Of a stretch of DNA of 64,000 nucleotides, positions 4,136 through 49,959 are shown one piece after another. Position numbers and translations under genes: made by a program. The notes under the pieces were generated by a model. That model was not told where the DNA came from and did no database searches. It was given only the letters and a program-made list of their open reading frames with translations. The stretch's first letter is position 1. Every line of letters starts with the position of its first letter. The DNA comes from Planctomycetota bacterium. Its GTDB lineage: Bacteria; Planctomycetota; J058. The stretch spans positions 1 to 64,000 of the forward strand of contig JAHBXY010000004.1 of NCBI GenBank assembly GCA_019636275.1, written 5' to 3'.

Positions 4136-5860
4136 TCAGCGCGCGAGGAAGGGGCCCAGGAAGGCGCCGTCGACGAAGTTCTCGTTGATCCGCGACACGG
4201 CCTCGTTGGCCTCGGACGCGGTGAAGCGCGCCGGCATGCCGGCCAGGACCAGGTTCGCCTCGTCGAGGACCTGCTGCACGGTCATGCCCACGGCCGGGCT
4301 GGCCGGGTCGGCCACGACGAGGCTGGTCAGCGCGGCCGGGTCGCGGCTGAAGTCGGGGTCCGCGCGATCGAAGCCGACGCTCAGCGTCAGCGCGACGACC
4401 TGCCCGGCCAGGATCCCGGCCTCGGTGGTCAGCGGGTCCACGTGGCTGCGGGCCAGGGGACCGGCCGTGCCGCCGGCGGGGAGGAAGGCCTCGACCGCGG
4501 CCGAGCTGCTGAAGCTGGCCGTGAAGCCGGCCGGGTGCCCGATCGTGAGGCCGTTGGGGAAGGCGGCCGGGAAGTTCGCGTCGCGGTAGGCGCCCGGGTT
4601 GTTGCCCGTGGCCGAGGTGCCCCAGCCGCCCTGCGTCTGCGTGCGGAACGCGCCGACGTCGATCCCGTTGACCGACACCAGCGAGGACGTGTCGCCCTTG
4701 CCGCCGGTGCCCGAGCCCTTGTTGCCGCCAGGCATCGGGTTCGGGTTCGGCGCCGGGTTCGGGTTCGGCGCCGGATAGGGCGCCGGGTTCGGGTTCGGCG
4801 TCGGATCGGGCGTCGGCCGCGGGTTCGGGTTCGGCGCCGGATCGGGCGTCGGGGTCGGCCGGGGCGCGGGGTCACGGGTCTCGCGCGGCTTCGGCGCCGG
4901 GTCCTGCGTCTCCATGGGCGTCGGCGCCGGGTCGCGCGTCGGCTTCGGCGCCGGGTCGCGCGTCGGCTTGGGTGCCGGGTCCTGCGTCTCCATGGGCGTC
5001 GGGGCCGGGTCGCGCGTCGGCTTGGGCGCCGGGTCCTGCGTCTCCGTGGGCGTGCGCGCCTCGGCGAGGCGCCCGCCGCTGTTCGGCGCCGACCGGGTGA
5101 CCTCGACCTTCGACTCGAGGCCCTCGACCGGCGCGGCGGCCGCGAGGAGCCTGACCTCGGCCCGCTCCTCGCGGGAGGCCTTCATGACCTCGGGGGCGGC
5201 CGCCTGGAGCGTGTAGCTGAAGTAGCGGGCGCGCTCGTCGCGCGGGAACGCGCGGTCGCCGGCCCAGGCGCTGGCGTGCTCCGTGGCCCCGATGCCGTCG
5301 CGCGGCGGCCGCCGCAGGTCCGCGTGCGCGGCGATCGCCAGCGTCTCGCCGGGGCGAAGCGCCTCCACCCCGAGCGCCTCCGTCAGCTCGTCGAGCGCGA
5401 AGGAGAACGTCGCCTCGCGCGTGCCCGCGGCGTGCTCCTGGCGCGCCAGGAACTGGCTGAGCTTGGGCGCGCCGGCGGGCGTCTGCGGGAGCGCCTCGGG
5501 GCCGACCGCGACGGCCAGGTCGCTCCGGGTGAGCTCCCAGCCCTCGCGCGCGGCGAACGTCACGATGAGGCGCGCGGAGTCGTTGGACGCCCGGACGATC
5601 GGACCGTCCGTCGCGGCCGCCCCGCCCGGCGCGGCGCGCGGGCGCTCCTTCGGCTCGCGCAGGGCCACCTCGACCGGCCCCGCGGTCTCCTCGAGCTGCG
5701 CCTCGCCGGGGGTCAGCGCCGTCCGGGTCGAGGCGGTCGTGGCCGGCGCGGGGGCGCCGCGGCCCCGCGACTCGCCGCACCCCGCCGCGCCCAGGGCCAC
5801 ACCGAGGCTCGCGCCCACCGCGAAGGCGTACCTGAGGAACTCGTCGCGCTTGCTCTTCAT
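4136..5860 (-). CDS. Lipoprotein with proline-rich linker and C-terminal surface domain
   Basis: 574 residues; the ATG follows AAAGGAG at good spacing. A lipoprotein signal ends GAAGCG. Residues ~40-265 form an N-terminal domain of unknown family. Residues ~270-375 are a linker built from repeats such as TRDPAP, METQDPAPKP and then PNPNPAP. The C-terminal ~190 residues start SVNGIDVGAFRTQTQGGWG and resemble a domain found at the end of many secreted bacterial proteins of unknown role; I cannot name it with certainty. The linker would let the C-terminal domain reach away from the membrane or through the cell-wall layer. The repeat DNA makes length variation likely. Confidence 0.65.
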   Translation of the reverse strand: MKSKRDEFLRYAFAVGASLGVALGAAGCGESRGRGAPAPATTASTRTALTPGEAQLEETAGPVEVALREPKERPRAAPGGAAATDGPIVRASNDSARLIVTFAAREGWELTRSDLAVAVGPEALPQTPAGAPKLSQFLARQEHAAGTREATFSFALDELTEALGVEALRPGETLAIAAHADLRRPPRDGIGATEHASAWAGDRAFPRDERARYFSYTLQAAAPEVMKASREERAEVRLLAAAAPVEGLESKVEVTRSAPNSGGRLAEARTPTETQDPAPKPTRDPAPTPMETQDPAPKPTRDPAPKPTRDPAPTPMETQDPAPKPRETRDPAPRPTPTPDPAPNPNPRPTPDPTPNPNPAPYPAPNPNPAPNPNPMPGGNKGSGTGGKGDTSSLVSVNGIDVGAFRTQTQGGWGTSATGNNPGAYRDANFPAAFPNGLTIGHPAGFTASFSSSAAVEAFLPAGGTAGPLARSHVDPLTTEAGILAGQVVALTLSVGFDRADPDFSRDPAALTSLVVADPASPAVGMTVQQVLDEANLVLAGMPARFTASEANEAVSRINENFVDGAFLGPFLAR

Positions 5861-17967: not shown

Positions 17968-18603
17968 ATGATCGACGTCGGCTCCCCGGCTCCGGACTTC
18001 GCGCTCACCGACCAGCACGGCAACACCGCGCGGCTGGCCGACCTGCTGGCTCGCGGCGCGGGGGCCGTGGTGTTCTTCTACCCCAAGGCCATGACGCCCG
18101 GCTGCACGCAGGAGTCGTGCGACTTCGAGGCGCGCGCGGCCGCCTTCGCCGGCGAGGGCGTGGCCGTGGTCGGGATCAGCCCCGACAGCCCCGAGCGGCA
18201 GGCGAAGTTCGCCGACAAGGAGGGCCTCGGCTCACTCCTCCTCCTCTCCGACCCCGACCACCGCACGGCCGAGGCCTACGGCGCGTGGGGCAAGAAGTCG
18301 CTCTACGGGCGCGAGTTCGAGGGCGTCCTGCGCTCGACCTTCCTGATCGGCAAGGACGGGAAGGTCCAGGGCGCCTGGCGGAGCGTGAAGGTGAACGGCC
18401 ACGCCGACGCGGTGCTGGCGGCCGCCGGCGGCGCGGCCGCGCCGGCGAAGAAGAAGGCGCCGGCGGCGAAGAAGAAGGCGCCGGCGGCGAAGAAGAAGGC
18501 GCCGGCGGCGAAGAAGAAGGCGCCGGCGGCGAAGAAGAAGGCGCCGGCGGCGAAGAAGAAGGCGCCGGCGGCGAAGAAGGCGAAGGCCGGCGCGCAGCGG
18601 TAG
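17968..18603 (+). CDS. Peroxiredoxin (BCP type) with lysine/alanine-rich histone-H1-like tail
   Basis: 211 residues; ATG after AGAGGAGG. Residues 1-150 are a complete AhpC/TSA-family thiol peroxidase of the bacterioferritin comigratory (PrxQ) class: FFYPKAMTPGCTQESCDF holds the peroxidatic Cys and, five residues later, the resolving Cys. It reduces H2O2 and organic peroxides using thioredoxin. The last ~55 residues are repeats of APAAKKK encoded by a 21-bp tandem repeat, like histone H1 or HU tails. Such tails bind nucleic acid, so the enzyme may be held at the nucleoid; that is inference. Spacing suggests co-transcription with the next gene or a separate short promoter. Confidence 0.9.
   Translation: MIDVGSPAPDFALTDQHGNTARLADLLARGAGAVVFFYPKAMTPGCTQESCDFEARAAAFAGEGVAVVGISPDSPERQAKFADKEGLGSLLLLSDPDHRTAEAYGAWGKKSLYGREFEGVLRSTFLIGKDGKVQGAWRSVKVNGHADAVLAAAGGAAAPAKKKAPAAKKKAPAAKKKAPAAKKKAPAAKKKAPAAKKKAPAAKKAKAGAQR
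18442..18583 (+). repeat. 21-bp in-frame tandem repeat in the peroxiredoxin gene
   Basis: The unit GCGCCGGCGGCGAAGAAGAAG, coding APAAKKK, is repeated about six times with almost no divergence. Near-identity at the DNA level suggests recent expansion and likely copy-number variation. Confidence 0.85.
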
Positions 18604-39112: not shown

Positions 39113-41091
39113 CCACGTCGGAGGCGGCGCGCTGGCCCTCGAGGAGCGCCAGCGCGGAGTCCTCCTCGCCGCGCGCCGCCCAGGCCAGGGCCACGAGGAG
39201 GCGCTCGCCGGGGGTGGCGCCCGCGTCGGGCGGTGGCGCGTTCACCTGCGCCCGGGGGATCCCTTCGCCGGCGAGCGCCCGGGCGACCCGCGCCGCGTGG
39301 ACCACCCGGAGCGCGCCGGCGGGGCCGTCGCCACGGGCGAGGGCGCAGGCGGTGAGGGCGTGCTCCAGGCGCGCGGCCCAGGGGAGGTCGACCTGGCCGC
39401 CCACCCCCGCGAGGCGCATGCGCAGGCGCGCCTCGACCCGCGCGCGCCAGGCCGCGTCCTCGGGGGCCGGCGAGCCGGTGGCGAGGAGCGCCTCGAGGGC
39501 GTCGCGGGTGGCGGCGGGGAAGGTCTCCTCCTGGGGCGCGCTCAGGCTGAAGGTAGAGACGAGGCTGGCGGCCAGCAGGGGGTCGTGCGGGAGGGCGCGC
39601 CGGCAGCCCGCCTCCAGCTCCGCGGGGGTCGTAGCCTCGTGCAGGTACAGGAGCGCTGCCGCGAGGTCGGGCGACGAGTCGTGGGGGCGCAGCCGGCCCT
39701 CCTCCTGCAGCGCGGCGCCGAGCAGCCGCCAGGCCGTGCCGCTCAGGACCTCCACGCGCACCGTCTCGCGCAGGGCGCGACGCAGCGGCGCGAGGACCTG
39801 CGTCGTGGCGACCGGCTCGCCGGCGGGCCAGCGCGCGAGGGCGTCCCCCAGCGCGCGCGCGTGGTCGCGCATGACCCCCACGTTCAGGACCTCGCGGCGC
39901 TCGATCGTCCCGGCCAGGGTCTCGGCGGCCGCGCAGGCCGCGCGGGCGTCGATCGCCGGCGGGCTCGTGGCCCGCGCCAGGGCCTCGGCGACGTCGGCCC
40001 GGCGCAGATGTCCGCCGCGCACGGCCGCCGCGAGGAGGCGGCGCTCCAGCTCGTCGTCGGGGTGTGACGCGTGGCGCTCGACGAGCCGCTCGAGGTCCTC
40101 CTCGTCGGGCGCCGCGCTGACCGGTGGGGGCTGGAGGGCGTCCGGCGCGCGGGCGGGCCCGGGCGGGGCGGGCGCCGGGGGGCGGGGCCAGGCGAGCGCG
40201 AGGGAGGCCGGGCCGCCACGGCGACGACCAGGAGGGCCGCCGGCCAGAGCCTGCGCCGCCCGCGGCGCCGGGGCGCAGCGCGGCCTCGAGGGCGTCGGCC
40301 AGCGCCGCCGCGCGGCCGAGGCGCCGCGCCGGGTCGGCCGTCAGGGTGCCGTCGAGCGCGCGGTCGAGGCCCGGCGGCGCGTCGTCGCGGGGCCGCGGGG
40401 CACGCGCGCCGCTCGAGATCGCCGCGAGCAGGGCCAGGGGGCTCGAGGCGGCGAAGGGGCGCGCGCCCGCGAGCAGCTCGTGCAGCACGACGCCCAGCGC
40501 CCACACGTCGGCCCGCCCGTCGACCCGCCGGCCGTCGAGCTGCTCCGGCGCCATGTAGGGCGGCGTGCCCAGCGCCTCGCCGGTCGCCGTGAGCGCGGCG
40601 GCGGTCAGGTCGCGCGCGCAGCCCAGGTCGGCCAGGCGCGCGCGCCCCTGCGCGTCGAAGAGGACGTTCTCGGGCTTGACGTCGCGGTGCACGAGCCCGA
40701 GCGCGTGGCAGCGGTCGAGCGTCCGGGCCAGCCCCGCCACGAGCGCGGCCGCCTCGCGCCAGGGCCAGGGCCGGTCCATGCGCCTGCGCAGGGTGCCGCC
40801 CTCCATGAGGTCCATGGCCAGGACCAGGGTCCCGGCCTCGCACCACACGTCGTGGACCCCGACGACGCCCTGCCCGCCCAGGCGAGCCAGCGCCTCGGCC
40901 TCGCGCCGGAAGCGGGCGACCTCCTCGGGGCCCGCCAGCCCCTGGAGCAGCTTGAGCGCGTGGACGGCGCCCGTATCGCGGTGCCGGGCGCGCACGACGC
41001 GCCCGAAGCCCCCACGCCCCAGCTCCGCCTCGACCTCATAGCGACCCAGCGGCCCCATGCCCGCATTCAACTTCTTGCGCGCCAGCGGCAC
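39039..41091 (-). pseudogene. Ser/Thr protein kinase split by two frameshifts (pseudogene or sequence error)
   Basis: The first ~275 codons from the ATG at 41091 encode a full Hanks-type kinase: GRGGFGRVV, ALKLLQ, HRDVKPENVLF, ADLGCA (DFG position reads DLG) and GTPPYMAPEQL. After AALRPG the frame degenerates to Arg/Pro noise. A membrane helix (RRLWPAALLVVAVAA) is found one frame over near 40250, and a sensible ~400-residue Ala/Leu-rich C-terminal domain (from SLALAWPRPP, ~40190, to a TGA at 39039) in the third frame. Two successive one-base losses explain the pattern. The intact ancestor would be kinase, membrane helix and periplasmic helical domain. The runs of G and C at the breaks make assembly error possible. 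Confidence 0.65.
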
Positions 41092-41172
41092 CAGCGAGGG
41101 GCCGGGCGATCGTCGGGCGCTCGTGGCCTGCGGTGGCTAGGATGGTCTGCGCGGGGGGAGAGACGAGCGGCG

Positions 41173-42666
41173 ATGACCCCGCCCCCCGAGCCCGAGTCCA
41201 CGGACGTCGTCGTCGTCGGCGGCGGGATCGCCGGCCTGACGGCCGCCCTGGCCCTGCGCGAGGCAGGGCTCGAGGTCACGCTCGTCGAGCGCGGCGAGCA
41301 CCTCGGCGGGCGCGCGGCGAGCTGGACCTGCCCGACGACCGGCGACCCGGTGGCGATCGGGCCGCACGTGTTCCTCTCCTACTACCCCAACCTGATGCAG
41401 CTCCTCGACCGGCTGAAGACGCGCGACCGGATCGTGTGGCACAAGCGCGAGTTCATCACCCTCGTCGAGGGCCGCCGCCGCTACGTGCTGCGCATGGCGC
41501 CGCTGCCGGCGCCGCTGCACTTCATGCCCAGCTTCAACGCGGACCCGGCGATCGGCGCGCGCGACGTGCTGTCGAACCTGTCGGTCTCGCTCCTGGCCCT
41601 GCAGCTGACCGAGGACGACGTCCTGCGGCTCGACGCGCTCAACGCGTCGGCGTTCCTGCGCGGCATGGGGGTGTCCGAGGCGACGATCGCGCGCTTCTGG
41701 GCCTTCGCCGCCCTGTCGATCCTCAACCTGCCGCTCGAGCTGTGCTCGGCCGGCGCCCTCATGCGCTTCTACCGGCACCTGATCGGCACGAGCGGCTACT
41801 GCTTCGGCTTCCCCGACGGCGGCCTCGGCGACGTCTTCGCCCCGGCGGCCCGCGAGCGGCTCGAGGCGCTCGGCGGCCGCGTGCTCCTGCGCACGGCCGT
41901 GAACGGCTTCACGGGCGGCGCGCGGCGCGTCACCGGCGTGACGCTCGAGGGGGGCCGGCGCCTCGAGGCGCGCCATGGCGTAGTCGCGGCCCTGCCGCCG
42001 GCCGCCCTGCGGCACCTGGCGCGGCGCGAGTGGCTCGACGAGCACCGCTGCTTCCAGGACCTGGTGCACTTCCAGCCCTGCCCCTACGTGAGCACGCAGC
42101 TCTGGTTCGACGAGAAGCTGACCACGCTCCCCTTCTGGGCGCGGGTCCACGCGCCCAACGACCTCAACTGCGACTACTACGACCTGTCGAACATCAACCG
42201 CGGCTGGTCGGACCGGCCCTCGGTGATCGCCACGAACTGCATCTACAGCCACCGCGCCGAGCACATGAGCGACGACGAGGTCGTGCGCGAGACCGTCCGC
42301 GAGCTGGCCGAGTTCCTCCCGCGCGCGGCGCAGGCGAAGGTCGTCAACGCCTGCGTGAATCGCGTGCCCATGGCGATCCACTGCCCCTTCCCGGGCATGG
42401 AGCGCCGCCGCCCGCCCCAGCGCTCGCCGGTGCACGGGCTCCTGCTCGCGGGTGACTGGACGCGCACCGAGATGCCCTCGTGCATGGAGAGCGCCGCGCG
42501 CTCGGGCTGGCTGGCCGCGGAGGAGGTCCTGCGTGACGCCGGCGTCGAGCGCCGCCTGGCCGTCGACCCGCCCGCGATCGACGGCCTGGCCGGGCTCCTG
42601 CACCGCGCTCGGCGCCTCCTGCCGTTCGACGCCCTGCCGCGGCACGTGCGTCGTTTGGCGGGGTAG
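41173..42666 (+). CDS. FAD-dependent amine-oxidase/phytoene-desaturase-like enzyme (HpnE/CrtI type)
   Basis: 497 residues. The N-terminal dinucleotide fold is intact (VVVVGGGIAGLTAALALREAG, here GGGIAGLTAALALREAG; then LVERGEHLGGRAASW), and the C-terminal FAD motif is GLLLAGDWTRTEMPSCMESA. The size and the segment IGPHVFLSYYPNLMQLLDRL fit carotenoid/squalene desaturases and HpnE-type dehydroxylases, so a role in isoprenoid or hopanoid oxidation is likely. No other hopanoid or carotenoid gene is near, except ispE 8 kb away. An UUCG-capped hairpin lies 10 bases after the stop. Confidence 0.8.
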   Translation: MTPPPEPESTDVVVVGGGIAGLTAALALREAGLEVTLVERGEHLGGRAASWTCPTTGDPVAIGPHVFLSYYPNLMQLLDRLKTRDRIVWHKREFITLVEGRRRYVLRMAPLPAPLHFMPSFNADPAIGARDVLSNLSVSLLALQLTEDDVLRLDALNASAFLRGMGVSEATIARFWAFAALSILNLPLELCSAGALMRFYRHLIGTSGYCFGFPDGGLGDVFAPAARERLEALGGRVLLRTAVNGFTGGARRVTGVTLEGGRRLEARHGVVAALPPAALRHLARREWLDEHRCFQDLVHFQPCPYVSTQLWFDEKLTTLPFWARVHAPNDLNCDYYDLSNINRGWSDRPSVIATNCIYSHRAEHMSDDEVVRETVRELAEFLPRAAQAKVVNACVNRVPMAIHCPFPGMERRRPPQRSPVHGLLLAGDWTRTEMPSCMESAARSGWLAAEEVLRDAGVERRLAVDPPAIDGLAGLLHRARRLLPFDALPRHVRRLAG

Positions 42667-42676
42667 CGCCGGGGTG

Positions 42677-42696
42677 TGACACCGTTCGCGGTGTCA
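42677..42696 (+). terminator. UUCG-tetraloop hairpin after the FAD enzyme gene
   Basis: TGACACCG-TTCG-CGGTGTCA is a perfect 8-bp stem with a stable UUCG loop. It separates the gene from the repeat array that starts about 8 bases later. Confidence 0.65.
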
Positions 42697-42703
42697 ACTG
42701 AAC

Positions 42704-44003
42704 GCCGGCTCGCGGTTCGTCAACGAGGTGGTCGAGCGGCTGGCGCCTGCGAGCGCGGCCCCCGCGGGGTGCGCGGTCGTCGACGAGTGGCTGGCGCCGG
42801 TGAGCAAGGTCGCGGTGGTGGCGTCGGCCCGAGGTTCGTCGACGAGGGCGGTCGCGTGGCTGGCGCCGGTGAGCACGGTCCGGGGGCTGCCCGCGGTCCG
42901 ACGACGAGGGCGGTCGAGAGGCTGGCGCCCGTGAGCACGGTCCCGGGGCTGGACGTCGGGCCGGGGTCCGACGACGAGGGCGGTCGAGTGGCTGACGCCC
43001 GTGAGCACGGTGCCGGCGCGGGACGCCGGCCCGCGGTTCGTCGACGAGGGTGATCGAGTGGCTGGCGCGCGTGAGCACGGTCTCGGGGGCTGGACGTAGG
43101 CCCGGGGGTCGTCGACGAGGGCGGTCGAGTGGCTGACGCCCGTGAGCACGGTGCCGGCGCGGGACGCCGTCCGCGGTTCGTCGACGAGGGTGATCGAGTG
43201 GCTGGCGCGCGTGAGCACGGTGCCGGCGCGGGACGCCGCCCGCGGTTCGTCGACGAGGGTGATCGAGTGGCTGACGCCCGTGAGCACGGTGCCGGCGCGG
43301 GACGCCGGCCCGCGGTTCGTCGACGAGGGTGATCGAGAGGCTGACGCGCGTGAGCACGGCCTCGGGGCTGGACGTAGGCCCGGGGGTCGTCGACGAGGGC
43401 GGTCGAGTGGCTGGCGCCCGTGAGCACGGCCTCGGGGCTGGACGTCGGCCGGCAGTCCGTCGACGAGGGCGGTCGAGAGGCTGGCGCCCGTGAGCACGGG
43501 TCGCGGTGCTGGACGTCGGCCCGCGGTCCGTCGACGAGGGCGGTCGAGTGGCTGGCGCCCGTGAGCGCGGGTGCCGGGGCTGGCTGTCGGCCCGCGGTCC
43601 GACGACGAGGGCGGTCGAGAGGCTGGCGCCCGTGAGCGCGGGTGCCGGGGCTGGCTGTCGGCTCGGGGTTCGTCGACGAGGGCGGTCGAGAGGCTGGCGC
43701 CCGTGAGCGCGGGTGCCGGGGCTGGCTGTCGGCTCGGGGTTCGTCGACGAGGGAGGTCGAGAGGCTGGCGCCCGTGAGCGCGGGTGCCGGGGCTGGCTGT
43801 CGGCCCGCGGTCCGACGACGAGGGCGGTCGAGAGGCTGGCGCCCGTGAGCGCGGGTGCCGGTGCTGGCCGTCGGCTCGGAGTTCGTCGACGAGGGCGTCG
43901 AGAGGCTGGCGCCCGTGAGCGCGGCCGCGGGGCTGGACGTCGGCCCGCGGCCGGCCGACGACGGCTGACGGCAGGTTGTCACCAGTGAGCGCTGTCCGAC
44001 GGT
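42704..44003 (+). repeat. Left array of ~70-bp tandem repeats (about 19 units)
   Basis: An anchor GTGAGC, mostly within GCCCGTGAGCACGG or GCCCGTGAGCGCGG, recurs at 42747 (degenerate), 42800, 42869, 42931 and then every 69-71 bases to 43985. Each unit continues with a GC-rich variable part, then GTTCGTCGACGAGGGCGGTCGAG (shortened: TCGTCGACGAGGGCGGTCGA) and GGCTGGCGC. The variable part falls into a few types (CCGGCGCGGGACGCCGG, TCGGGGCTGGACGTAGG, GCCGGGGCTGGCTGTCGG). No gene is credible in it: unit lengths not divisible by three make all frames drift. Orientation is opposite to the right array. Confidence 0.9.
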
Positions 44004-44146
44004 TGGGCGCCGCCGCCGATCGCCCTTCAGCGCGGCTCGGTGCGGATTCGGCCACGGTTCACCTCTGCGCGCCCCTGACTCGATTCGCACCAGCGCGAGC
44101 CGCAAAATGCACACATTTGAAACCCGCAATCAGGCGCTGGTCTCGG

Positions 44147-44152
44147 TATTAT
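44147..44152 (+). promoter_or_regulatory. Possible -10 (TATTAT) of the HNH endonuclease gene
   Basis: The 230 bases between the left array and the HNH gene include the most A+T-rich patch of this part of the window (GCAAAATGCACACATTTGAAA region). TATTAT is the best -10; TTGAAA at 44117 is too far for a standard -35. GAAGGAGGG precedes the ATG. Confidence 0.4.
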
Positions 44153-44236
44153 CTCCTGCTGGCGTGGCGCATTGGCCGAACGGCCAGCGCAGGATCGCCA
44201 CCACCACCACCAACCACACCGCACGAAGGAGGGTCC

Positions 44237-45556
44237 ATGAAGACGACCTCGCGCCGAGGCTCCGCCTCGTCCCAGCCGCTCCCCAAGGCCGAGCTCGAGG
44301 CGACCCTCGACGAGGCGCGGCGGATCGACGCCCGGATCGCCGACGTGGTCCGCCGCGAGCGGCAGGCCACCGCCGAGCTGGCCTACCTCCTCCTGCACGC
44401 CGAGCGGTGCGACGTGCACCGGGCCTTCGGTCACACGCGGATCGGGAAGTACGCGGTCGCTCGCGGCTTCGTCAACTCGGACCGCAAGGCACGCGAGCTG
44501 ATCGCGCTCGCTCGGGAGCTCGAGCGCCTGCCGCGCATGCGGGTCGACTTCCGCGCCGGCCAGGTCGACTGGACCAAGGCGCGGACGGTCGCGCCCGTGG
44601 CCACGCCCGAGACCGAGGAGCGCTGGCTGGACCTGGCCAAGACCTGCACGAACCGCCAGCTCGAGGTCCTGGTCGCGGAGGCCAAGGGCGAGGAGGCGCC
44701 CGTGCGGCGCACGATCAAGCAGACGAAGGAGCAAGCCGGCTGGCTCGACGAGGCCCTGCGCCTGGCGCGGCTGAACAGCGACCGGCCCCTCACCGACGAG
44801 CAGGCGCTCGAGATCGTCTGCCGCGGCTACGCCGAGGGCGTGGCCAGCCGGGCCGGGGCGGGGCCGGCCTACCGGATCGTGATCCACAAGTGCGAGTGCG
44901 GCGCGCCGGCGACCCTCCAAGGCCGCGACGGGCCGGTCGAGCTCTCGCCCGCCAGCGAGGCGGCGGCGAAGCGCGACGCCGAGGTGCACGACCTGCGCAC
45001 GGGCACGGGCAAGGTGACGAAGACGATCCCGGATCGGATCCGGCGCCTGGTCATGGATCGTGACGGCGGCGTCTGCAAGGTCCCGGGCTGCGGCGCGCGG
45101 GGCCGGCTCCACATCCACCACGAGCCCGGGCGCGAGGCCACCGGGCACGATCCGGATCGCATGCTGCTCGCATGCGATCGCCACCACCCTGACCGCCATC
45201 AGGGCTACATCGAGATCAAGGGCGACGCGCGGGTGGGCTTCCGCTTCTTCCTCGCCGACGGGACGGAGCTCACGGGCGCGCCGGCGCCGGTCGCGCCCGT
45301 GAGCACGCCGGCCGCGTCGGTCGAGGCGGCGTCGACGGGCGTGCGGCGGGGGGCGGCGCAGGAGGAGGACGAGCCGGCGCGGATCGCCGTGCTGGCGCTC
45401 GTGGGCCTGAAGTGCACGAAGACCGAGGCCCGCGAGCTCGTGCGGCGGGCCGGCGAGCGGCTCGCCGAGCGAGGCGAGGGGCGCTCGGTCGAGGCGCTGA
45501 CGGCGGAGGCGCTGCGGATCGTGGGCGACGGCCTGATGGGGCGCGGGGTCGAGTAA
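44237..45556 (+). CDS. DUF222/13E12-type HNH endonuclease with RuvA-C-like end
   Basis: 439 residues; ATG after AAGGAGGG. The N-terminal ~250 residues are the helical DUF222-like region (ARGFVNSDRKARELIALARELERLP, shortened: VNSDRKARELIALAREL). The HNH nuclease is at ~279-320: CKVPGCGARG, LHIHHEPG, DPDRMLLACDRHH, with the Cys pairs and His residues of a zinc-stapled HNH. Residues ~375-430 (ARIAVLALVGLKCTKTEARELV) resemble the RuvA C-terminal helical domain that contacts RuvB. DUF222/HNH proteins include the M. tuberculosis REP13E12 family, a repeated sequence that serves as a phage integration site. Here the gene is centred between two inverted repeat arrays. Confidence 0.85.
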   Translation: MKTTSRRGSASSQPLPKAELEATLDEARRIDARIADVVRRERQATAELAYLLLHAERCDVHRAFGHTRIGKYAVARGFVNSDRKARELIALARELERLPRMRVDFRAGQVDWTKARTVAPVATPETEERWLDLAKTCTNRQLEVLVAEAKGEEAPVRRTIKQTKEQAGWLDEALRLARLNSDRPLTDEQALEIVCRGYAEGVASRAGAGPAYRIVIHKCECGAPATLQGRDGPVELSPASEAAAKRDAEVHDLRTGTGKVTKTIPDRIRRLVMDRDGGVCKVPGCGARGRLHIHHEPGREATGHDPDRMLLACDRHHPDRHQGYIEIKGDARVGFRFFLADGTELTGAPAPVAPVSTPAASVEAASTGVRRGAAQEEDEPARIAVLALVGLKCTKTEARELVRRAGERLAERGEGRSVEALTAEALRIVGDGLMGRGVE

Positions 45557-45637
45557 GTCGACCCGGGCGCTCGGTCGGCTTAGGGAAGGTTGCCGGCCGC
45601 GGTCGGATCCAGAACGTGAATCGGCGTCGTCAACGCG

Positions 45638-47590
45638 CTGCCCAGCCCGTCGACGGCCTCACTCGTCGACGACGATCACCCGCCGCGACGCGCGAGCCGA
45701 CGCTCACAGGAGCCGGCCCGTCGTCGATGACGATCACGCCCGGCGCGCGCGGACCGGTGCTCACCCGACCCAGCCGTCGGCGGCCTCGTCGTCGACGACG
45801 ATCGCGCCCGGCGACGCGCGGACTGGTGCTCACACGACCCGCCCCGTCGACGGCCTCGTCGCCGACGACGATCGCGCCCGGCGACGCGCGGGCCGGTGCT
45901 CACCCGACCCAGCCCGTCGACGGCCTCGTCGTCGACGACGATCCCGCCCGACGACACGCGGACCGGTGCTCACCCGACCCAGCCCGTCGAGGGCCTCGTC
46001 GTCGTCGTCGATCCCGCCCGGCGACGCGCGGGCCGGTGCTCACCCGACCCAGCCCGTCGGTGGCCTCGTCGTCGACGACGATCTCGCCCGGCGACGCGCG
46101 GACCGGTGCTCACACGACCCACCCCGTCGACGGCCTCGTCGCCGACGACGATCCCGCCCGGCGACCCGCGGGCCGACGCTCACCCGACCCAGCCCGTCGC
46201 CGACCTCGTCGTCGACGACGATCCCGCCCGGCGACGCGCGGACCGGTGCTCACACGACCCATCCCGTCGACGCCTCGTCGTCGACGACGATCGCGCCCGG
46301 CGACGCGCGGACCGGTGCTCACCCGACCCAGCCCGTCGGCGGCCTCGTCGTCGACGACGATCGCGCCCGGCGACGCGCGGGCCGGTGCTCACACGACCCA
46401 GCCCGTCGAGGGCCTCGTCGTCGTCGTCGATCCCGCCCGGCGACGCGCGGGCCGGTGCTCACCCGACCCAGCCCGTCGGCGGCCTCGTCGTCGACGACGA
46501 TCGCGCCCGGCGACGCGCGGACCGGTGCTCACACGACCCACCTCGTCGACGGCCTCGTCGCCCACGACGATCCCGCCCGGCGACCCGCGGGCCGACGCTC
46601 ACCCGACCCAGCCCGTCGCCGACCTCGTCGTCGACGACGATCGCGCCCGGCGACGCGCGGGCCGGTGCTCACCCGGCCCAGCCCGTCGACGGCCTCGTCG
46701 ACGACGACGAATCGCCCCCGGCGACGCGCGGGCCGGTGCTCACCCGACCCAGCCCGTCGACGGCCTCGTCGTCGACGACGATCGCGCCCGGCGACGCGCC
46801 GGCCGACGCTCACACGATCGAGCCCAGTCGTCGGCTCGTCGACGACGATCGCGCCCGGCGACGCGCGGACCGGTGCTCACCCGTCCCAGCCCGTCGACGG
46901 CCTCGTCGTCGATGACGATCCCGCCCGGCGCGCGCGGACCGGTGCTCACACGATCGAGCCCGTCGACGGCCTCGTCGTCGACGACGATCCCGCCCGGCGA
47001 CGCGCGGGCCGACGCTCACCCGTCCCAGCCCGTCGACGGCCTCGTCGTCGACGACGATCGCGCCCGGCGACGCGCGGGCCGACGCTCACCCGTCCCAGCC
47101 CGTCGACGGCCTCGTCGTCGACGACGATCGCGCCCGGCGACGCGCGGGCCGACGCTCACCCGACCCAGCCCGTCGATGACGTCGTCGTCGACGACGATCG
47201 CGCGCAGGCGACGCGCGGGCCGACGCTCACCCGACCCAGCCCGTCGCCGGCCTCGTCGTCGACGACGATCCCGCCCGGCGACGCGCCCGCCGACGCTCAC
47301 ACGATCGAGCCCAGTCGTCGGCTCGTCGACGACGATCCCGCCCGGCGACGCGCCGGCCGGTGCTCACCCGACCCACCCCGTCGACCGGCCTCGTCGTCGA
47401 CGACGATCCCGCCCGGCGACGCGCGGGCCGACGCTCACGACCCAGCCCGTCGACGGCCTGGTCGTCGACGACGATCCCGCCCGGCGACGCGCGGGCCGAC
47501 GCTCACACGACCCAGCCCGTCGACGGCTCGTCGTCGACGACGATCCCGCCCGGCGACGCGCGGGCCGACGCTCACACGACCCAGCCCGTC
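45638..47590 (-). repeat. Right array of ~70-bp tandem repeats (about 28 units), inverted relative to the left array
   Basis: The anchor GCTCAC (GTGAGC on the minus strand) recurs 28 times from 45702 to 47570, mostly every 69-71 bases. The unit (plus reading) is GCTCACCCGACCCAGCCCGT, CGACGGCCTCG, the perfect palindrome GTCGTCGACGAC, GATC(G/C)CGCCCGG, CGACGCGCGGGCCG(GT/AC). Larger blocks are duplicated: about 45968-46387 repeats at 46387-46806 (six units), and the odd unit CACACGATCGAGCCCAGTCG recurs at 46808 and 47295. On the minus strand the unit aligns with that of the left array. No gene is credible in this 2-kb stretch. Confidence 0.9.
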
Positions 47591-47607
47591 GTCCAGCGAG
47601 GCCCGGG

Positions 47608-48666
47608 TCAGGCGGTGAGGGCCGTCCCGCCGCGCGGGAAGGCCAGGGCCAGCCGCTCGCCCGGCGCGCCGAAGCGGGCCAGCGAGTAGTCGACGGCGGC
47701 CTGGTAGTCCTCGCGGCAGCCGGTGATCGACGAGACGAAGGCCCGCCCGAACTCGGTCACGCGGGGGGCGTGGGCGCGGACGTCGAACCCGGCCGGCAGG
47801 CGCTGGCTGCGGAACACGAGGCGCCGCCGCCCGAGGAGGCCGCGCTCGACGCGCGGCGCGCGCACGGCGCGCACGTTGCCGACGAGGCCGTCGAGCCAGG
47901 TCGGGTGCGGGCGCGGCGCGCCCTGGCGCGGGGCGCCGAGGTGGTGCGTGAACACGGCCTGCTCGCGGCGGAAGTGCTCGAGCGTGAGCGCGGCGAGCGC
48001 CTCGAAGCGCCGCGCGCCGTCCTCGACCCCCAGGGCGTCGGTGAGCCGCCGCGCCAGGGCGCGGCACTCCTCGTCCATGAGCGGCGGCAAGGGGCCGTCG
48101 AGCAGCGCGGCGGCGAGGTCGCCGCGCCCCTCGCGGCGGAGCGCGTGGCAGCGCAGGGCGAGGAGCGTGAGCGGCACCGAGTCGGCGAAGATCGCGCGGT
48201 TCGTGCGCCGCAGGGCGTCGTCGATCCGCTCGCTGGCGCGCTCGACGTGCGGCAGGCCCAGGAGCGCCGTCGCCCGGCCGAGCAGGCCGTAGACGCGCAT
48301 GCGCGACATGCCGTCGAGGACCGTGCAGATCCCCAGCACGGCGACGACCGGCCAGGGGTACTCGAAGCCGACGCGCCGCCCGAGGTCGAGGTAGCCCGCG
48401 ACGCGCGCGTGCAGGCAGTGGTTGTGACGGCGCAGGAGGGCGTGCGCCTCGCGGAGGAGCGTCCGCTGCTCGGCCTCGAAGGCGGGCCGCAGGGCGTCGG
48501 GGACCGCGCGCGACAGGTGCTCGTCGTAGGCGGCCCCCGCCATGCGCAGGTCCGGCCCCGAGAGGAGGGCCAGGTCCTCGCCCATGAGCTGGAAGCTGCT
48601 CGCGCTCGCGTCGGCCAGGTGCGCGCGCAGCCGCGCGACCAGGCCCGTCCCCTGCTCCATGATCAT
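47608..48666 (-). CDS. Conserved-looking cytoplasmic protein of unknown function
   Basis: 352 residues from the ATG at 48666 (an ATG two codons later is possible). It is helical, with no signal peptide; one hydrophobic patch (WPVVAVLGICTVLDGMSRM, ~105) is too polar for a firm membrane call. His/Cys residues cluster near LRRHNHCLHARV (~80) and LEHFRREQAVFTHHLG (~225), which might bind a metal; that is a guess. I do not recognise a family. The right repeat array begins about 18 bases beyond its stop codon. It is divergent from the CitE-like gene. Confidence 0.55.
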   Translation of the reverse strand: MIMEQGTGLVARLRAHLADASASSFQLMGEDLALLSGPDLRMAGAAYDEHLSRAVPDALRPAFEAEQRTLLREAHALLRRHNHCLHARVAGYLDLGRRVGFEYPWPVVAVLGICTVLDGMSRMRVYGLLGRATALLGLPHVERASERIDDALRRTNRAIFADSVPLTLLALRCHALRREGRGDLAAALLDGPLPPLMDEECRALARRLTDALGVEDGARRFEALAALTLEHFRREQAVFTHHLGAPRQGAPRPHPTWLDGLVGNVRAVRAPRVERGLLGRRRLVFRSQRLPAGFDVRAHAPRVTEFGRAFVSSITGCREDYQAAVDYSLARFGAPGERLALAFPRGGTALTA

Positions 48667-48750
48667 CAGGAATGCCACCACCCCCGCCCCAACCCGGTTG
48701 TGGCACCGACCATCGACGGCGGGAAGGGGCGTGGCTCGGCGGTCACGGGG

Positions 48751-48756
48751 TATGCT
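48751..48756 (+). promoter_or_regulatory. -10 element TATGCT of the CitE-like gene
   Basis: TATGCT ends 6 bases before the ATG at 48763. The wording GGGTATGCTC also occurs on the minus strand upstream of panC (~51705). Confidence 0.45.
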
Positions 48757-48762
48757 CCGGTG

Positions 48763-49956
48763 ATGGACGAGGGAGACCGGGAGCGCATCCTCGACAGCTT
48801 CGAGCGCGACCGGGCGGCCCTGCTCGCGGCGGCGCGCGCGCGGGAGGCGGGCCTGCCGGCGCGCTGGCTGCACCAGCCGTCGCACTTCACCGTCCCGGCG
48901 AGCGACTCCGATCGCATCCGCAAGGCCGCCGGCGGGCTGGCGCCCTGCCGCCGGCTCCTCGAGCGCCTGGGGCTCGCGCCGGCCGAGGTCGCCGCGGCGC
49001 TCGAGGTCGAGCAGGCCCTGCTCGACGAGGCGCTCGCCGGCGGCGCGCCGCCGCCCGTGGTGATCGTCGACGGCGAGGACGCCACGGCCCTCGACCCGGC
49101 CGTCCAGGCGCGCGCGCGCGCGGCGGCCGTCGAGGCCCTGTGCGAGGTCGACTGGGGGCGCACGCTGGCCCTCTACATGCCGAGCGGGCTCGAGCTCGAC
49201 GCGTGCGCGCGCGACCTGGTCGACGTCGTCGGCGCGACCCTCTGCCGGGGCGGCCGGCTCGACGGGGTCGTGTGGCCGAAGGCGCGCCACGAGGACGAGC
49301 TGCGCCTGCTCGACCGCACGCTGGCGGCCCTCGAGTCCGCGCCCGGGCAGGTGCGCGTGGTGTTGATGGTCGAGTCGGCCGCGGCGCTCGCGCGGCTCCC
49401 GGCGCTCACCGAGGCGCTGCGCCCGCGGCTCGGGGCGCTCGTCCTGGGGCTCGTCGACCTCGCCTCGGACCTGGGCCTGCCGGAGGCGCGCCAGGACCAC
49501 CCGGCGCTCGACGCCGCGCGCGTGCAGCTCGTGCAGGCGGCGGCGGCGGTCGGGGTGCCGGCGATCGACGCCATGACCTTCGACTACCCGGTGCGCGACC
49601 CGGCCCTCGACGACGCGGCGAACCGGGCCCGAGCGCTCGCGGCGCTGGCGACCTGCGCGCGCGACGCGCGGCGCGGCGCGGCGCTCGGGATGGCCGGCAA
49701 GTGGGTCGGCCACCCGCTCCAGCTCCTCGTCAACGAGGTCGTGCGCCGCGCCGCCCTGGGCGGGCCGGCGCGGGTCGAGCGCGACCTGGCCGAGGCCCGC
49801 GCCTACGCCGATGCCGTCCGCGCCGGCCGCGGCGCCGTGGCCTGGCAGGGGCGCATGCTCGACCGGGCGACCGACCGCCACGTGCGCGTGCGCCTGCGCG
49901 CGGCGCTGGCGTATGGCCTCGTCGCGCCCGACGTCGCCGCCGCCCTGGAGCTGTGA
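48763..49956 (+). CDS. HpcH/HpaI (CitE-like) aldolase/lyase
   Basis: 397 residues. TIM-barrel landmarks of the citrate-lyase-beta/malyl-CoA lyase family are seen: VIVDGEDATALDP (~95), VVWPKARHEDEL (~170), VRVVLMVESAAAL with the Glu metal ligand (~200), LVDLASDLGL with Asp (~227) and AMTFDYPVRDP (~268), then GMAGKWVGHPLQLLVNEV. Family members cleave or form C-C bonds of acyl-CoA or dicarboxylic acids; the substrate here is unknown. The N-terminal ~70 residues are an unusual helical extension (HQPSHFTVPASDSDRIRKA). It is likely leaderless. Confidence 0.78.
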   Translation: MDEGDRERILDSFERDRAALLAAARAREAGLPARWLHQPSHFTVPASDSDRIRKAAGGLAPCRRLLERLGLAPAEVAAALEVEQALLDEALAGGAPPPVVIVDGEDATALDPAVQARARAAAVEALCEVDWGRTLALYMPSGLELDACARDLVDVVGATLCRGGRLDGVVWPKARHEDELRLLDRTLAALESAPGQVRVVLMVESAAALARLPALTEALRPRLGALVLGLVDLASDLGLPEARQDHPALDAARVQLVQAAAAVGVPAIDAMTFDYPVRDPALDDAANRARALAALATCARDARRGAALGMAGKWVGHPLQLLVNEVVRRAALGGPARVERDLAEARAYADAVRAGRGAVAWQGRMLDRATDRHVRVRLRAALAYGLVAPDVAAALEL

Positions 49957-49959
49957 CGC

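Follow-up and report, generated by a model that had tools for sequence, protein, structure and literature searches.

A ~5 kb stretch in the genome of a Planctomycetota bacterium (GCA_019636275.1; the first 64,000 nucleotides of contig JAHBXY010000004.1 were analysed and are referred to here as the window) is, with high confidence, a mobile element in which a single HNH endonuclease gene is enclosed by two large arrays of ~70-bp tandem repeats that belong to the element itself. The unit that moves consists of a left array (type A), a leader, the HNH gene and an inverted right array (type B); its ends are like those of foldback elements and like satellites, and no transposase can be recognised in it. 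The gene and its arrays move as one and are inserted at new locations between genes. The best explanation of the whole is a multi-copy mobile element whose mobility enzyme is most likely the HNH protein, and on balance we favour it. A first-pass annotation, made from the letters alone, had suggested that the entire ~5 kb is mobile or self-expanding, and its mobility is borne out by the arrays found on all close copies, by co-variation between unit and gene, and by empty sites in a second genome.

The comparison covers two closely related genomes, that of the window (G000; 9.33 Mb in 315 contigs) and a congeneric one (G001; JAMLIC01, Planctomycetota bacterium ACE_NR_PLAN1), both of which are draft assemblies in which arrays may have been shortened by collapse and contig ends interrupt several copies. 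Genes neighbouring the G000 elements were located in G001 to compare the sites, which revealed five where only one of the two genomes carries an element (L009/L097, L010/L098, L017/L100, L020/L101 and, in the reverse direction, L059/L109). Since the congeneric species lacks copies at the corresponding positions, the element moves. At the window's own site (L009) the matched ends are 4960 bp apart, vs 241 bp in G001:C85 (L097), with flanks (to 42662 and from 47623) that match at 91% and 88%, respectively, and the two flanking genes adjoin each other in G001 with no element between them. Near-exact insertions are seen at L010 (4.9 kb in G000 vs a 6-bp gap in G001) and L017 (5.2 kb vs a 16-bp gap); the L020 site is empty in G001, and the L059 element of G001 is not present at the G000 site. 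The site orthologous to L021 (G001:C105:37350-37550; ~4350-4550 of L102) holds a remnant array of two to three units without an HNH gene. One element, L056, is shared by the two genomes as an orthologous copy together with its arrays, and is not an assembly artefact because it occupies the same place in each at ~90% identity.

Tandem Repeats Finder (TRF) placed the window's left array at 42784-43965 (71-bp period) and its right array at 45714-47591 (70-bp period), and a unit profile widened the former to the limits given in Table 1 (coordinates of L009 plus 38999 are window positions). The original counts were about 19 units (left) and 28 (right); the right-hand number stands, and the GTGAGC anchor gives 18 on the left, with a median period of 70 bp. 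As first proposed, both arrays converge on the HNH gene, GTGAGC occurring on the forward strand only in the left array and on the reverse strand only in the right one. The unit order is also as described at the outset, with GTGAGC followed by a variable GC-rich stretch, the palindrome TCGTCGACGA (extending up to TCGTCGTCGACGACGA in type B) and GGCTGG. Units picked by the palindrome carry an exact GTGAGC at nearly fixed spacing in 174 of 209 cases, and one with no more than one mismatch in 199. The inverted relation of the arrays is confirmed, but the right unit is not simply the left unit read on the minus strand: types A and B are related but distinct, and 58% alike at the same locus. Across copies the left arrays are type A and the right arrays mostly type B, some of them being partly or wholly A. 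Whole units within a single array are ~85% identical; arrays of the family reach up to ~50 units of ~70 bp, and solitary arrays are few.

That such a pair of arrays surrounds the HNH gene is far above chance, because the pair recurs around all close copies in two genomes. G000 contains 13 complete copies of the gene (11 at 93-100% and two at 79% protein identity; 79-98% relative to the window's gene) together with 11 contig-end pieces, and all 24 have arrays in converging orientation on each visible side, those to the left of the two 79%-identity copies being short; long inverted ends of tandem subrepeats are present in all complete close copies. G001 has ~10 copies, and 66-70-bp units form one or more arrays at each of them, apart from a 62%-identical copy, whose left array is built of a different unit (~55/109 bp). 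An alignment of 25 copies showed that the conserved leader contains a CATAATGCACACATTTGAA block, TGGCGTGGCGC, a GGCCG/CGGCC hairpin and an AGGAGG ribosome-binding site, of which the first block is partly retained in the 62%-identical homologue. Close relatives lacking arrays, or the same arrays at many loci lacking the gene, had been named in the first-pass annotation as observations that would refute it; among close homologues no copy without arrays was found, and array-only loci are few (L078, L080, L086 and L102). No arrays were found at the distant HNH genes of G000 (up to 43% identity), and no 70-bp arrays were seen in more distant multi-copy HNH families of G006, G007 and G067. Searches of phage records, plasmid records and viral contigs found no relatives, and no phage integration was seen, a role for which genes of the REP13E12 type had been cited.

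The sequence of the left unit tracks the phylogeny of the HNH gene and not that of the host genome (Mantel r=0.91, 0/5000 permutations), and the right units track the gene less closely (r=0.30, 85/5000 permutations); within the young clade alone the correlation between unit and gene is not significant. L056 is placed outside the G000 copies in the gene tree with weak support only, and the two 79%-identity copies from G000 are the sister lineage of the G001 group, which points to a separate burst in each genome. Ratios of dN/dS among 12 copies (0.15-0.45, median 0.27) show that the HNH protein is under purifying selection and maintained.

Gene orientation around the sites, taken from a simple codon-usage gene finder, shows convergent neighbours at 12 of 26 element or array sites, vs 16-21% of comparable gaps (p=3e-4 to 4e-3), and divergent neighbours at only two of the 26. 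Array edges are often 3-50 bp from a neighbouring stop codon (30 bp on the left and 13 bp on the right in the window). The bias towards convergent gaps is explained equally well by promoter avoidance under selection as by targeting. The insertions are intergenic, with no interrupted and spliced host coding sequence of the kind seen in intron or intein homing.

Our analysis of the HNH protein of the window (P0001) distinguishes a helical N-terminal domain (aa 17-204; ParB/Noc-like), an HNH domain (aa 265-345) and a C-terminal three-helix region (aa 379-435; RuvA domain III-like). The HNH motif (C280, C285, H295, C313, H317) is nearly invariant in a 28-sequence alignment, and PF01844 was matched by 8 of 28 wider relatives. 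The gene had been named a DUF222/HNH gene, of which the HNH part is upheld, and its membership of the REP13E12/DUF222 family is weakly supported; P0001 matched no Pfam family, DUF222 (PF02720) included, and DUF222 was matched by three of the 28 wider relatives with a best E-value of 2.7e-4. NCBIfam returned a weak IscB-type HNH match (E 0.007, 15.5 bits vs a cut-off of 175), and PHROGs an N-terminal family of no known function (E 9e-5) as well as HNH families. The structure model built from the alignment has a mean pLDDT of 77 (N-terminal domain ~97), the single-sequence model being poor. Foldseek against the PDB related the N-terminal domain to the DNA-binding domain of Noc (probability 0.94, 0.80, 0.57) and the C-terminal helices to RuvA domain III (probability 0.90, 0.84, 0.84), assignments that rest on match length and on profile comparison, which was in register for the ParB helix-turn-helix (HTH; P 4e-4) and RuvA domain III (P 8e-4) vs 0.16-0.39 for mismatched controls, the ParB and RuvA profiles having been built from proteins of relatives. 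A Pfam HTH_ParB search did not return the HNH gene. Both predicted domain assignments are likely, the ParB/Noc-like one being suggestive only, and a ParB/Noc-like dimer sitting on a palindrome would fit the palindromic unit. In agreement with the first-pass annotation, no transposase, integrase or reverse transcriptase was found inside the element, and neither a transposase domain nor a Y1/HuH tyrosine transposase was matched in its protein by Pfam, NCBIfam or PHROGs.

Taken together, we infer that the element is mobilised by its own HNH protein, a role for which we put the case at only slightly better than even. The ParB/Noc-like domain would bind the palindrome in each array unit, so that the two inverted arrays would serve as multi-site ends; that the arrays are bound by the HNH protein is predicted from the model and is, in our estimate, reasonably probable. 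The first-pass suggestion that they are its target or binding sites has indirect support in the ParB/Noc-like fold and the palindromic units. The HNH domain would then nick or cut DNA, and the element may be copied into a new place with the help of host repair, inserting between genes, with convergent gaps favoured and without a visible target duplication, and the arrays may grow and shrink by unequal exchange in the manner of satellites. We would propose only tentatively, at somewhat less than even confidence, that this represents a new class of bacterial transposable element whose transposase is a stand-alone HNH endonuclease combining a ParB/Noc-like DNA-binding domain with a RuvA-like tail, and whose ends are satellite-like inverted arrays of sites bound by that enzyme.

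Several observations weigh against such a role for the HNH protein. No target-site duplication is visible at L010 and L017, the two precise sites on which any junction rules rest, and no terminal cleavage site is definable; flank comparison gave chance-size matches only, apart from a local gene duplicate at L016, where a 180-bp direct repeat around the site corresponds to a duplicated neighbouring gene and is ambiguous. Arrays are not needed for the HNH gene to multiply, because distant multi-copy HNH relatives (G007, G067) are without them. For the Noc and RuvA matches Foldseek gave E-values of ~1 and above, none of them significant, and hhalign probabilities reach just 24-35% (35% for the ParB HTH); binding of the units by the protein is a prediction. 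To our knowledge, HNH enzymes are not known as transposases.

Alternatively, the element may be moved in trans, by another transposase or by host recombination, and the HNH gene may ride along as a passenger; it could encode a homing-type nuclease, for instance, which cuts alleles without the element and is copied into them by repair. The lack of a known transposase domain in the protein, the presence of two insertion sequence (IS) families in arrays of the same genome, and insertions without target duplication, which fit repair-based copying, all favour this. However, every close copy, the ancestral shared one included, keeps the HNH gene under purifying selection, gene-less derivatives are few, and the insertion sites are unrelated intergenic places rather than alleles of one target, and we regard a passenger gene as unlikely. 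Ordinary paralogous REP13E12/DUF222-like HNH genes, spread by general recombination without element ends and with neighbouring satellites expanded by chance, are improbable and already disfavoured. Multi-copy HNH families without arrays in related genomes are in keeping with that possibility, as is the satellite-like turnover that mixes A and B units in some right arrays, but it does not account for the strict orientation in all copies, the A-left/B-right asymmetry in most of them, the co-inheritance of unit type and gene across two genomes, or the clean insertions that contain both arrays.

A chromosome-organising system, in which a ParB/Noc-like protein would act on dispersed parS-like arrays in an order seemingly without canonical ParB, is very improbable. 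The Noc/ParB-like fold and the palindromic multi-copy sites would suit it, and the HTH_ParB and ParB_N models miss nearly all genomes of the order (G000-G007, G009; weak matches in G005 and G008 only) and find class and phylum relatives. However, the same-family genomes G002-G005 are without canonical ParB and also without close copies of the HNH gene, positions are not conserved between the two species of the genus, and the nuclease domain is retained. RuvA_C is likewise missing or weak in the same family. Transcription of the arrays into guide or structured RNAs that serve the HNH protein, in the manner of IscB, CRISPR or TIGR systems, as regular repeats and an HNH domain weakly similar to IscB below cut-off might suggest, is scarcely credible and was rejected, since the window has no Rfam match, units fold no better than shuffles (z -0.9 to 0.6), there is no consistent covariation around the GTGAGC anchor, and unique spacers are lacking.

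Among known systems, the element appears to work most like a foldback element. Foldback, Galileo and Tetris of Drosophila share with it long inverted ends made of internal tandem repeats; Galileo is a member of the P-element superfamily (PMC3573991) whose long ends hold several binding sites for the DNA-binding domain of the transposase (PMC3688188), and the repeats or ends of Tetris gave rise to satellite DNA (PMC4079207). Those elements are eukaryotic, whereas the one described here is bacterial, with an HNH protein, no DDE transposase or target duplication seen, and left and right ends of different unit types. The nearest bacterial architecture is that of RAYT with inverted REPs, where one nuclease gene likewise lies between inverted palindromic repeats that are intergenic, and where repeat and enzyme phylogenies agree (PMC2817692). 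RAYT, however, is a tyrosine transposase related to IS200/IS605, and each REP is one short palindrome rather than a long array. The element belongs to neither the foldback-like nor the RAYT group, since it has no DDE or Y1 transposase and target duplication was not seen. The REP13E12/DUF222-HNH genes of Mycobacterium are likewise HNH genes scattered in multiple copies, and their N-terminal domain is helical too, but P0001 is without a DUF222 match. We know of no description of flanking ~70-bp arrays for those genes. IscB/HEARO shares an HNH endonuclease in a mobile context; unlike it, the HNH protein has no RuvC domain that could be found, and no omega-RNA was matched by Rfam in the window. 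A CRISPR-like array would have constant repeats with unique spacers, which is not the case here.

Bacterial mobile elements fall into classes defined by a few kinds of DNA-cutting chemistry, and no known class accommodates an element family that reaches about two dozen copies per genome on the strength of an HNH gene and converging satellite-like arrays alone. No description of HNH genes with flanking tandem arrays was found in the open-licence literature. The element would give a bacterial model for satellite arrays arising from element ends, and could explain the frequent multi-copy state of HNH/DUF222-type genes.

Table 1. Features of the element and its flanking genes in the window
Feature	Position	Strand	Basis or remark
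Whole insertion relative to the empty site (L097) in G001	42663..47622		flanks matched to G001:C85
Left array, ~18 units of ~70 bp, type A, GTGAGC toward gene	42697..43982	+	TRF, anchor count, unit profile
Conserved leader of the HNH gene	44103..44236	+	alignment of 25 copies
HNH endonuclease gene, 439 aa	44237..45556	+	
Right array, ~28 units of 70 bp, type B, GTGAGC toward gene on minus strand	45696..47591	-	TRF, anchor count
Left flanking gene, FAD-dependent oxidoreductase-like (nucleotide-binding motif), start uncertain	40480..42666	+	outside element
Flanking gene on the right, convergent with its left counterpart; start uncertain (shorter ORF possible)	47608..49959	-	outside element

A derivation of the unit from a linker within the gene itself (GTGAGCACG in the coding sequence) was considered and was not significant vs synonymous shuffles. 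Two other arrays of the family in G000 are split by an inserted IS (L082, G000:C76, 6107-8657; L087, G000:C103, 1188-2773), one being IS66-like and the other of another integrase-core type; cargo between tandem arrays was ruled out at both loci, which are explained by later IS insertions. In the order-level relative G007, 93%-identical palindromic repeats with GGGGTCAGGTCC cores, which we take to resemble RAYT-type repeats, surround an HNH gene (L095, 19-197 and 1812-1988). Elsewhere in the window there is a perfect tandem repeat of 21 bp in 6.5 copies (18443-18579) and a stretch of GGCGCCGGGT-type repeats with periods of 6 to 78 bp (4735-5060).
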